Shown here: piece by piece, positions 1,084 to 11,858 of the stretch
Position numbering within the stretch: position 1 is the stretch's first letter
How the letters are laid out: each line of letters starts with the position of its first letter
Assembly (NCBI GenBank): GCA_002373555.1
Contig: DFKM01000128.1
Coordinates: 1-12,263 of the forward strand
Direction: 5' to 3'
Origin: Lachnospiraceae bacterium UBA3645
Lineage (GTDB): Bacteria; Bacillota; Clostridia; Lachnospirales; Lachnospiraceae
DNA: 12,263 nt
Notes under the pieces: generated by a model
What the model was told of the DNA's origin: nothing
Seen by the model: the letters and a program-made list of their open reading frames with translations, nothing else
Database searches by the model: none
Program-made: the position numbers and the translations under genes

Positions 1084-1112
1084 TTGACTTTATTAAATGT
1101 CTTTGCTATAAT
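1084..1112 (+). promoter_or_regulatory. Extended -10 sigma-A-type promoter of the CHAP/LRR/Ig gene
   Basis: The -35 is TTGACT (1084-1089), then a 17-base spacer and a perfect -10 TATAAT (1107-1112). TGC at 1104-1106 makes this an extended -10. Transcription should start near 1119, giving a leader of about 80 bases before the ATG at 1198. This is one of the two strongest promoters in the window. Confidence 0.88.
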
Positions 1113-1122
1113 GGGCTCAAAT

Positions 1123-1139
1123 GTTACATAGATATTACA
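1123..1139 (-). promoter_or_regulatory. Candidate WalR (YycF) direct-repeat box
   Basis: On the plus strand this reads GTTACA-TAGAT-ATTACA; on the minus strand TGTAAT-N5-TGTAAC. That exactly fits the published WalR consensus TGTWAH-N5-TGTWAH, with 11 bases between repeats. It lies about 11 bases after the -10 hexamer, over the first transcribed bases, a position where binding would be expected to repress. A peptidoglycan-hydrolase-like gene is a typical WalR target. The match is seen; binding is inferred. Confidence 0.5.
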
Positions 1140-1197: not shown

Positions 1198-2823
1198 ATG
1201 AGTACTGTTAGAGTAAAGATTTTGCCTGTAATATTATCCCTGCTTTTCGTCTTCGGTGCTGCACCGGCAGCTGTCCAGGCTGCCGCATCCGGGACCTCCG
1301 GACAGACGAAATGGTCTTATTCCGATAACACGATCGTTTTCACCGGCGACGGAGCGACCGACAGCTATTCCGGTACGGATGTGCCGTGGGTGCTCAAGGG
1401 CGCCGCTGCGTCCAATTCCGGTCTGACTGCGGATAAGGTCATCCATGCTGCGGAAGATGAACTGCAGTACTCGGAGAAGCGGAGCAACAGCAGTCTATAT
1501 GACAAGCGTGCGAATATCGGCAAGGGCAACTATACGAAGTATGCCGCGGATCTGTTTCCGTCACTGCAGGCGAACGCATGGTGTGATATGTTCGTTTCGT
1601 GGTGCTTCTGGAAGGCCGCCGGCAAAGATCAGAATATCGCGAATAAGGCGCTCTGCGGTGGTCTGAAAAGTGCTTACACCCCGAATTCCGCCAGCAAATA
1701 CAAAGCAGACGGACGCTGGACAACGACCGATCCCCAGGTAGGCGATCAGGTTTTCTTCAAGAACAGCTCCCGGATCTGCCATACTGGTATTGTTTATAAA
1801 GTGACAAATGACGCGATCTATACGATCGAGGGAAATACGCTTTCCGGACAGTCCTCTTCCGCCAGCGGCGGCGAGGTATTGCGCAAGATGTATGCCCGCA
1901 GCTTCTGGAAGATCGCCGGTTACGGCCATCCCATCTACAACGGATCCGCCATCAATACCCAGCTGGATATCAGCAAGGTGGAATTCAAGGAAGGCGTGAC
2001 CAAGCTCGGCAGTTATCTGTTCACGCACCGGAATGATGTGAAGACAGTTGTTATCCCCAAGTCCGTTACAGAGATCGCCTCGTATGCATTCAGCTACTGC
2101 GAAGGCATCACGGATGTTTATTACGCCGGATCCGCCGCTGACTGGAGCAAGGTCAAGATCGGAAGTACAGGCAATTATTATATTGAACATGCCAATATGC
2201 ATTACGGCACGACCAATGCGCCGAAGGTCGAAACCAATTCGGTATCCGCAGACGGTACAAGCGCGTCCGGCAGCCTGCGCTTCACGAGTCAGCCTTCCAG
2301 CACCACGGTGGAAGGAAACAAGCTGCATATGTTCGCGGTGACCACGAACCAGTTCGGCGCGACTTACAGATGGCAGGTCAAGGAAGTCGGCAAGAAGTGG
2401 AGATTCTTCTCTGAGAAATGGACAGCCAGGACATCGATCCTGAACTTCACGGTCACACCCGCGATGAACGGCTGGAAATTCCGCTGCAAGGTGACCAAGG
2501 GCGGCCAGACTATTACGTCGAAGGCCTTTACAGTCAAGGTCGCCGGTGCACTGAGCGTGACCAAACAGCCGAAGAAGACTTCCGTGAAAGCGGGCAAGAA
2601 GGCTGTTTTCAAAGTCAAGGTCAGCAAGGAAGCGACATTCCAGTGGCAGTATCAGAAATCCGGCAGCAGTAAGTGGAAGAAAGTATCCGGCACGAAGACG
2701 GCAAAGACAGCCACGCTGAAGCTGAAGACCAAGAAGAAATACAACGGCTGGAAGTACAGATGCAAGATCACCTCCGGTAACCAGGTTGTCTATACCAATG
2801 CTGTCAAGCTTACTGTAAAATGA
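1198..2823 (+). CDS. Secreted CHAP-like amidase/peptidase nested in a BspA-type LRR, with two Ig-like domains
   Basis: I chose ATG 1198 (541 residues) because AAGGAG at 1187-1192 sits 5 bases before it; an in-frame TTG at 1165 has no such site. A signal peptide covers residues 1-28, with likely cleavage after AVQA. Residues about 36-62 (WSYSDNTIVF..DVPW) resemble the N-terminal cap of BspA/LRR_5 proteins. Residues about 75-240 form a CHAP/NlpC-P60-like cysteine hydrolase: AWCDMFVSWCF gives candidate nucleophile Cys129, RICHTGIV gives His195 and IEGNT gives Asn213. An LRR_5 unit follows (about 255-335, with EGVTKLGSYLF and YYAGSAADWSKVKIG), then two Ig-like domains at 360-444 and 450-541. The last 92 residues hold 24 Lys, 1 Arg and only 1 acidic residue. 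The likely role is cell-wall peptide cleavage or remodelling outside the cell, with the basic tail binding anionic wall polymers. No LPXTG or SLH anchor is seen. The substrate is unknown. Confidence 0.85.
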   Translation: MSTVRVKILPVILSLLFVFGAAPAAVQAAASGTSGQTKWSYSDNTIVFTGDGATDSYSGTDVPWVLKGAAASNSGLTADKVIHAAEDELQYSEKRSNSSLYDKRANIGKGNYTKYAADLFPSLQANAWCDMFVSWCFWKAAGKDQNIANKALCGGLKSAYTPNSASKYKADGRWTTTDPQVGDQVFFKNSSRICHTGIVYKVTNDAIYTIEGNTLSGQSSSASGGEVLRKMYARSFWKIAGYGHPIYNGSAINTQLDISKVEFKEGVTKLGSYLFTHRNDVKTVVIPKSVTEIASYAFSYCEGITDVYYAGSAADWSKVKIGSTGNYYIEHANMHYGTTNAPKVETNSVSADGTSASGSLRFTSQPSSTTVEGNKLHMFAVTTNQFGATYRWQVKEVGKKWRFFSEKWTARTSILNFTVTPAMNGWKFRCKVTKGGQTITSKAFTVKVAGALSVTKQPKKTSVKAGKKAVFKVKVSKEATFQWQYQKSGSSKWKKVSGTKTAKTATLKLKTKKKYNGWKYRCKITSGNQVVYTNAVKLTVK

Positions 2824-7507: not shown

Positions 7508-7520
7508 GATCCGGAGGAAA

Positions 7521-10515: not shown

Positions 10516-10533
10516 GTATTTTGTTCCAATACC

Positions 10534-10562
10534 TTGACGTAACAAATTTGTAACATTATAAT
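10534..10562 (+). promoter_or_regulatory. Sigma-A-type promoter of the zinc-ribbon/SH3b/YARHG gene
   Basis: TTGACG (10534-10539) and a perfect TATAAT (10557-10562) are spaced by 17 bases. The start should be near 10569, giving a leader of about 114 bases. It begins only 18 bases after the stop of the preceding gene, for which no terminator is visible. Confidence 0.85.
10539..10555 (-). promoter_or_regulatory. Candidate WalR (YycF) box between -35 and -10
   Basis: On the plus strand GTAACA-AATTT-GTAACA; on the minus strand TGTTAC-N5-TGTTAC, an exact fit to TGTWAH-N5-TGTWAH. It fills the promoter spacer and touches the -35, so binding should block RNA polymerase. It is the second such box in front of an envelope gene in this window. 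Confidence 0.5.
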
Positions 10563-10578
10563 AACAGAGTAATCGTTT

Positions 10579-10615
10579 ATCATGATATGCCATGCTTGCA
10601 TGCGCCTATCATGAT
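10579..10615 (+). repeat. Stem-loop at the 5' end of the SH3b/YARHG transcript
   Basis: ATCATGATA (10579-10587) and TATCATGAT (10607-10615) form a perfect 9-bp stem. Inside it, GCCATG (10589-10594) can pair with CATGCGC (10599-10605) with one bulged C around a CTTG loop. It would begin about 10 bases after the predicted transcription start. No known riboswitch class is recognised. Confidence 0.55.
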
Positions 10616-10682
10616 GATCTTATTCCCCGACGAAAAATGAGAAAATAGAATCTTTCTATGCAATAAAAAGGGAGGTAAAACT

Positions 10683-11858
10683 ATGGCCACAAAGATCAAG
10701 ATCTGCCCCGCCTGCGGACGGGAGATCCCCGCGCTCGCTTCATTCTGCCCCGAATGCGGCGTCAAGCTTGCGAAGCCCGATCCCGAAAGCTTCAGGGACT
10801 GGGATGACGAAGCCGAAGAGAGAGAGCAGGAAGAAGCTGCCAGAGAAGACGAGGAGTATGAAAGAAACGCTGCCAGAGAGGAAGAGATGGCGAGACGCCG
10901 CGAATCCTATCAGAAGCAGCTTGAGAGACGCCGTTCGAATTCCAGAAAGATGATCCCCGTGGTCATCCTTCTGATCCTGCTGCTGATCGCAGCCGGCATC
11001 TATGCCGGAACAAGGATGTTCCGGAGCGGCGGAAACGGTTCCGGCGGAGAACAGGGAAGCATCTCCGGCAATCTTTCCGGGAACAATGAATCCGCGGATG
11101 CCGAGACCGGCACCGGTGCAGCCGATACGCTGGAATCCCAGACCGAGACAGTCCCCGAGATCCAGACAACTGCTGCGGAATCCGAGAGCGAGACCGCGAC
11201 CGAGAGCCAGACCGAGACCAGCACGATGGAAAGCAGCACCCAGCCGACGACTACGGCTGTCGATACCAGCAATGCGAAGACCATGTATGTCACCACGTAT
11301 CTGAACGTTCGTGACGGCGCCGGCAACAGCTCGAATGTCATCGGCCAGATCACCGACGGCGATCCGATCCAGGTACTGGATGATTCCGGAAACTGGTACA
11401 AGATCGCTTACAACGGCCAGGTCGCGTATGTCTATTCCGGTTATGTCGTAGGCTCGAGGGAAGAAGTCGCAAAGCGCCATTCCGAGGAGGCTTCGAAGGC
11501 GGAAGAGAGTAGGAAGGCCGAGGAGAGCAAGAAGGCAGAGGAAAGCAAGAAAGCCAAGGAGACCACCAAGGACACCAGCAATTACAAGGCCGGCAGCGAT
11601 GATTCCTCTGTGATTGCCAAGAGCAGCAAGAAATATCTCGACGACGATGATCTGGACGGCATGAGCAGCAGCGATCTGCGTCTTGCCAGAAACGAGATCT
11701 ACGCCCGCCACGGCTGCATCTTCAAGGACAAGAGCCTGCAGAAATATTTCGAAGGCAAGAGCTGGTACACGCCGAAGATCAATGTAGACGATTTCGATAC
11801 AGGCAGCCTCAACAAGTACGAGATCGCGAACATCAAGAAGATCAGAGACAAAGAATAA
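10683..11858 (+). CDS. Zinc-ribbon, single-pass membrane protein with extracellular SH3b and YARHG domains
   Basis: The protein is 391 residues; GGGAGG (10670-10675) lies 7 bases before ATG. A zinc ribbon CPACG..CPECG at residues 8-26 gives four metal-binding cysteines. A highly charged Glu/Arg helix, probably coiled coil, spans about 33-88. One transmembrane segment follows (about 90-110, IPVVILLILLLIAAGIYAG) and predicts the N-terminus inside and the C-terminus outside. A Thr/Ser/Glu-rich stretch runs about 115-195, then an SH3b domain (about 201-257, with LNVRDGAGNSSNVIGQI and GNWYKIAYNGQVAYVYSGYV). A Lys/Glu linker with three copies of KAEES plus R or K starts at residue 272. A YARHG domain (about 316-391, with LARNEIYARHG and KSWYTP) ends the protein. 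SH3b domains usually bind peptidoglycan; YARHG is an extracellular domain of uncertain function. The layout suggests a link between cell wall and cytoplasm; no enzymatic domain is seen. Confidence 0.88.
   Translation: MATKIKICPACGREIPALASFCPECGVKLAKPDPESFRDWDDEAEEREQEEAAREDEEYERNAAREEEMARRRESYQKQLERRRSNSRKMIPVVILLILLLIAAGIYAGTRMFRSGGNGSGGEQGSISGNLSGNNESADAETGTGAADTLESQTETVPEIQTTAAESESETATESQTETSTMESSTQPTTTAVDTSNAKTMYVTTYLNVRDGAGNSSNVIGQITDGDPIQVLDDSGNWYKIAYNGQVAYVYSGYVVGSREEVAKRHSEEASKAEESRKAEESKKAEESKKAKETTKDTSNYKAGSDDSSVIAKSSKKYLDDDDLDGMSSSDLRLARNEIYARHGCIFKDKSLQKYFEGKSWYTPKINVDDFDTGSLNKYEIANIKKIRDKE
11496..11561 (+). repeat. Tandem KAEES(K/R) codon repeat inside the SH3b/YARHG gene
   Basis: Three consecutive 18-base units encode KAEES followed by R or K, then a fourth decayed unit. 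Synonymous bases differ between units, so the repeat is not brand new. It forms a charged, probably helical spacer between SH3b and YARHG. Confidence 0.7.

Follow-up and report, generated by a model that had tools for sequence, protein, structure and literature searches.

A tandem GTAACA repeat in the promoter spacer of a zinc-ribbon/SH3b/YARHG gene of Lachnospiraceae bacterium UBA3645 is a probable operator for a WalR-like regulator

The window analysed here, a stretch of 12,263 nucleotides from Lachnospiraceae bacterium UBA3645 (genome G000 in our comparisons), contains a gene for a membrane protein in which a Pfam scan placed an SH3_3 domain (57.9 bits) and, at residues 310-389, a YARHG domain (PF13308) that scored 78.4 bits and thus lies above the gathering score of 27. 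The zinc ribbon of the protein scored below the Pfam cut-offs, and the translation, read by eye, has a single membrane stretch between the zinc ribbon and the SH3 domain. Directly past the predicted transcription start, the 5' leader of the YARHG gene can form a strong hairpin at 10577-10617 (arms ATCATGATATGC and GCCTATCATGAT). Its 100-nt leader gave a folding z of -3.4, and the unrelated leaders of the orthologues in the genomes G004 and G003 also folded better than their shuffles (z -2.0 and -2.3). The features discussed in the following are collected in Table 1.

Table 1. Positions of promoters, repeats and genes in the window.
Feature	Position	Strand	Basis or remark
CHAP/LRR_5 gene promoter: TTGACT (1084-1089), TATAAT (1107-1112), 17-bp spacer	1084-1112	+	by eye
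First box GTAATA-TCTAT-GTAACA, one mismatch	1122-1139	-	TGTAATATCTATGTAAC at 1139-1123; about 9-10 nt past the -10; kept in G004
Gene for a secreted-looking protein with CHAP and LRR_5	1198-2823	+	Pfam scan
35-bp block identical in G004 (RGIG2573)	10533-10567	+	covers the -35, three half-sites and the -10
-35 hexamer TTGACG of the YARHG gene promoter	10534-10539	+	read in the sequence
Half-site 1, GTAACA	10539-10544	+	G10539 common to the -35; inside the G004-identical block
Half-site 2, GTAACA	10550-10555	+	11 bp past half-site 1; inside the G004-identical block
-10 hexamer TATAAT, 17-bp spacer	10557-10562	+	read in the sequence
Half-site 3, ATAACA	10561-10566	+	11 bp past half-site 2; overlaps the end of the -10; kept in G004
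Gene for a 391-aa protein: zinc ribbon, one membrane stretch, SH3_3, YARHG	10683-11858	+	Pfam scan; membrane stretch by eye

The promoter of the YARHG gene reads C-TTGACG-TAACAAATTTGTAACAT-TATAAT-AACAG. This promoter should work without an activator, given its 17-bp spacer and consensus bases at 11 of the 12 hexamer positions. The spacer holds the repeat GTAACA-AATTT-GTAACA (10539-10555), which reads TGTTACAAATTTGTTAC on the minus strand (10555-10539), that is, TGTTAC-N5-TGTTAC. All elements of the original prediction, this repeat and the TTGACG and TATAAT hexamers, were present. Its statement that the repeat lies exactly between the two hexamers has to be amended: the repeat does occupy the 17-bp spacer, but it shares G10539 with the -35, and a third copy had been missed, so that three half-sites at an 11-bp step span both spacer and -10 (10539-10566). 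On the minus strand, 10555-10539 and 10566-10550 both fit the WalR consensus TGTWAH-N5-TGTWAH exactly; on the plus strand, 10538-10554 fits it with one mismatch. Because TGTAACA and TGTTACA are reverse complements of each other, this consensus leaves the strand unfixed. GTAACA-N5-GTAACA, referred to below as the word, is oriented like the gene (plus strand) here, and likewise at 11 of the 13 other sites in the genus. The perfect palindrome ACAAATTTGT was rejected as the main feature of the operator, since the five intervening bases differ among the 12 other tabulated genus sites while the direct hexamers are constant, these sites having been selected by their hexamers (the genus table omits UBA3645, its G004 orthologue and locus L050, and the family table omits L060).

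The window contains four matches to the word with at most two mismatches, where the mean of shuffled windows was 0.21 and none of 200 shuffles reached four, and none of 300 shuffles of the 350-nt region upstream of the YARHG gene equalled the match found there. These counts, together with agreement at 12 of 12 positions plus the third copy, and with the 35 bp that are identical in G004 despite diverged flanks, make it very improbable that an AT-rich spacer simply resembles a direct repeat by chance, even though the word is missing from four of the five other orthologous promoters that were read and the loose consensus TGTWAH-N5-TGTWAH shows no clear enrichment in UBA3645 (7 occurrences against 4 in the control), for which reason we rejected that consensus as sole proof. 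The genome-wide scan that had been proposed to check the box gave the following counts for narrower patterns: in the 1.96-Mb assembly TGTTAC-N5-TGTTAC occurs once (control 0), and the word with at most one mismatch occurs seven times (control 1), at five places, two of them inside the window.

When 61 genomes were searched with the YARHG protein, some match was found in 53, in most cases confined to SH3b or YARHG. G003 (89%) and G004 (88%), the latter being the sister species Lachnospiraceae bacterium RGIG2573 from goat jejunum, encode near orthologues; G006 reaches 52%, and G009, G001 and G010 match over part of the protein (40-46%). Flanking the 35-bp block that UBA3645 and G004 have in common, identity amounts to only 12 of 41 alignment columns on one side and 70 of 131 on the other, the latter figure being raised by the ribosome-binding end. 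Identity runs of 35-36 bp between the same two genomes also occur at 7516, 7604 and 7900 (called non-coding by the script, around and partly inside rpsT), where the rpsT part of the window is 84% identical to G004 overall; the block at 10533-10567 is therefore notable against its own flanks, not by its length.

Among the six genomes in which the upstream region was read (UBA3645, G004, G003, G006, G001 and G010), the word stands at the YARHG gene only in UBA3645 and G004. In G003 the promoter is lost, another TATAAT is found upstream of the gene, and the contig lacks the word within two mismatches, whereas the orthologue promoters of G006, G001 and G010 keep TTGACG-N17-TATAAT and lack the repeat. 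The best matches upstream of these four orthologues have 4-5 mismatches, which is the level of shuffles. The original prediction had named absence of the repeat from close relatives as evidence against itself; the sister species has the repeat and the four others do not. Inclusion of the YARHG gene in a regulon, as it had proposed, is accordingly lineage-specific: it can be upheld for UBA3645 and G004 and not for G003, G006, G001 and G010. An 18-nt inverted repeat, 89% complementary and with 14 nt between its arms, is located around the G006 orthologue promoter (L005:2749-2798) and is possibly a different operator that replaces the GTAACA repeats.

The first box of the window, which precedes the CHAP/LRR_5 gene, was found and is conserved in G004 as stated in Table 1; it is the word on the opposite strand from the repeat at 10539-10555. 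It stands out less, because the CHAP/LRR_5 leader is also conserved in G004. Of the ten other genus genomes, nine yielded no full-length CHAP/LRR_5 orthologue. Within this leader (1150-1197), which is well conserved with G004, ATTGAA could pair with a TTCAAT located directly before the ribosome-binding site (by eye). Elsewhere in UBA3645, one box lies on contig C137 between a clostripain-family gene and one that encodes a secreted-looking protein to which Pfam gave no match, one on C112 lies inside a gene and was taken as chance, and the one on C13 is described below. That two of the five places fall within one window may itself be chance.

Beyond UBA3645, the word occurred 15 times in the genus against 1 in the control (11 genomes) and 231 times in the family against 71 (150 genomes, of which 85 had more matches than the control, 15 fewer and 50 the same number). 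Other families of the order gave 159 matches against 77 (128 genomes), unevenly distributed, with 55 against 13 in family f11 and 10 against 21 in f22. With promoters and gene starts assigned by simple script rules, 11 of the 13 genus matches outside the YARHG pair lie 6-12 nt past the -10 of a TTGACA- or TTGACT-N17-TATxxT promoter and point in the direction of the gene. All 11 genes behind these sites carry SH3_3 (Pfam), and nine also encode NlpC/P60 (L039, L041, L046, L047 and L048) or 3D (L040, L042, L044 and L051), leaving SH3 alone at L043, which is cut by the locus end, and L045. Of the remaining two genus sites, L049 faces a papain-lectin gene and L050 lies behind a tRNA-Gly with no clear target.

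The family Pfam sample comprised 15 of 30 loci, chosen for a secreted-looking gene beside the box and therefore biased; 11 of them had NlpC/P60, Hydrolase_2, M23, CAP or SH3_3, and the others a transglutaminase core (L066), LRR_5 (L059) or no domain (L054, L076). An M23-G5-LysM architecture was among the family genes chosen at boxes. In stretches of G027, G177, G150, G189 and G130, which were inspected because each had several matches and in which promoters and gene starts were assigned by script rules as well, some boxes are intragenic or are not directed at any clear gene. G027 has 13 matches to the word against 0 in the control, several of which precede a -35, and at L083:1223-1272 (G027:C1) four tandem GTAACA at an 11-bp step precede a small lipoprotein-like gene. 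The regulon that had been suggested to unite the two boxes of the window is in part supported by the word at secreted wall genes of the genus, by its enrichment in the family and by the WalR-like pair described below; its designation as a stress regulon found no support.

A promoter class with the box in the spacer was not seen. The exact spacer-box pattern appeared only on the G004 contig in a wider contig search, from which UBA3645 itself was possibly excluded, and only in UBA3645 among 397 family genomes that did not include G004. Among the matches listed from these 397 genomes, 49 others had 2-3 mismatches to the pattern, and five of the 49 keep TAACA and GTAACA next to a damaged -35 or -10 (by eye). 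The spacer geometry at the YARHG gene differs from that of the other genus sites, which follow the -10.

Direct repeats with an 11-bp step are a common binding target in the OmpR/PhoB family, and UBA3645 has ten Trans_reg_C genes. Seven of the ten regulators were scanned with family models (one of them partial, one truncated by its contig), and the best candidate for binding the word is encoded on contig C139. Its best model was NCBIfam YycF NF040534 with 284.3 bits against a cut-off of 340, followed by the next model at 246.9; as it falls under the curated YycF cut-off, we call it WalR-like and not WalR. The kinase encoded with it has NCBIfam WalK NF033092 as its best model (261.6 bits against a cut-off of 725), and Pfam finds only HisKA and HATPase_c in it. 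WalR, which the original prediction had named as the regulator, is therefore represented by a WalR-like regulator and kinase in the genome, and its identity here is our inference. The gene past the kinase encodes a Germane domain; in Bacilli, walH, walI or walJ adjoin walRK. Orthologues of the regulator match at 82-99% over nearly full length in seven of the ten other genus genomes, with two pieces in G007 and one in G005. No box was present at the nine loci of the WalR-like gene that were examined, and thus there is no sign of autoregulation.

It is unlikely, in our view, that the word serves a different member of the OmpR/PhoB family, whether PhoB or any of the nine further Trans_reg_C proteins of UBA3645, in which case the wall regulon would be real under another name. 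The abundance of such genes and their common preference for 11-bp direct repeats speak for it, as do a regulator on contig C93, encoded in the same stretch as an SH3b match, and the genome G002 (an assembly 87% complete), in which a WalR-like orthologue was not found although two boxes are present; yet WalR agrees better with the targets, the word and the conservation than the other named families known to us do. For PhoB in particular, the regions upstream of six pstS-type loci, all from the genus and five above the family cut-off, lack the word within two mismatches, and on this ground we rejected a Pho box. The pstS gene itself was not found in UBA3645 or G004. Upstream of pstS at L152, L154 and L155, inspection by eye showed repeats of the TTTAC type (CTTTAC, TTTTAC, CCTTAC) with an 11-bp step, which resemble a genus Pho box.

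PhoB-type regulators activate when bound over or beside the -35, and the same operator might accordingly be an activator site. On C13 of UBA3645 a triple copy stands directly before the TTGACG of a DUF5050 gene, divergent from a VanW/PG_binding_4 gene, and the word lies upstream of a -35 in the family genomes at L084 and L088. At the YARHG gene, however, the near-consensus hexamers with their 17-bp spacer and the overlap of the third copy with the -10 argue against activation, which we consider improbable, and in Staphylococcus aureus WalR sites between or downstream of the -35 and -10 are described as accompanying repression, with orientation having no effect (PMC10746227). The claim that the box sits in a repressing position agrees with that description, and repression is what we infer here; the position of the genus sites past the -10 at SH3b genes suggests repression as well.

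The site is real and looks functional, and operators of its kind are already known. As the word is also found at cell-wall enzyme genes of related species, we read 10539-10566 as an off-switch used by a regulator of wall growth: the repeats probably form a tandem operator at which the WalR (YycF)-like regulator of C139 represses the YARHG gene, a reading to which we assign, on sequence grounds, a probability of roughly two in three. In its phosphorylated form, this regulator would occupy the spacer of a strong sigma-A promoter in a head-to-tail arrangement, possibly joined by a third protomer on the -10, and would in this way block access by RNA polymerase. The presumed signal would be a fall in signalling by the WalK-like kinase, upon which the zinc-ribbon/SH3b/YARHG protein would be made, and any role of this protein in the wall is likewise putative. 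In Clostridioides difficile, WalR overexpression is reported to lower the expression of an NlpC/P60 gene for which two WalR sites are predicted (PMC9210968). In Bacillus subtilis, high endopeptidase activity is described as lowering signalling and freeing iseA (PMC7299342), and by analogy the same logic may apply to the YARHG gene.

If this reading is right, the data sketch, on the basis of sequence, a Lachnospiraceae regulon of the WalR type, in which the operator word is narrow and its sites at SH3b hydrolase genes have a repressing geometry. In the literature searched we found no WalR study of this family, which is a weak negative. The data also tie the YARHG protein to a wall regulon in two species. 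This link is of interest and is bound to one lineage, and through it the guess that YARHG binds peptidoglycan, put forward by Coggill and Bateman (PMC3355149), becomes testable via expression. More speculatively, and with considerable doubt on our part, the YARHG protein might be a recently recruited feedback component of WalRK in the species pair, made when phosphorylated WalR falls, that senses peptidoglycan outside the cell via SH3b and YARHG and then either signals to the interior via its zinc ribbon or holds wall hydrolases in check, like IseA of B. subtilis. Were this true, it would provide the first regulatory context for YARHG.

Among known systems, the Pho boxes of PhoB/PhoP are likewise tandem hexamers at an 11-bp step bound by a regulator of the same family; the word differs from them in its absence within two mismatches upstream of pstS in the genus and in having wall genes as targets. 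With the WalR/YycF (VicR) operators TGTWAH-N5-TGTWAH described for Bacillus, Staphylococcus and Streptococcus (PMC4168254, PMC9210968), the site has in common the direct hexamers, the 11-bp step, an A at the seventh position, the location in promoters of peptidoglycan hydrolase genes and the overlap with the promoter seen at repressed genes. TGTAACA-N4-TGTAACA fits the consensus given for VicR of Streptococcus mutans, TGTWAHA-N4-TGTWAHA (PMC4168254). The Lachnospiraceae word is narrower than these operators, with (T/C)GTAACA twice and a third copy at the YARHG gene, and its presumed regulator scores below the curated cut-off. Coggill and Bateman describe proteins with a zinc ribbon, a membrane stretch and YARHG, and also SH3 together with YARHG (PMC3355149). 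The UBA3645 protein has the N-terminal zinc ribbon, the membrane stretch and the extracellular YARHG in common with those described there, and is set apart from them by uniting zinc ribbon, SH3_3 and YARHG in one chain and by a promoter that carries the wall-regulon word in two species.
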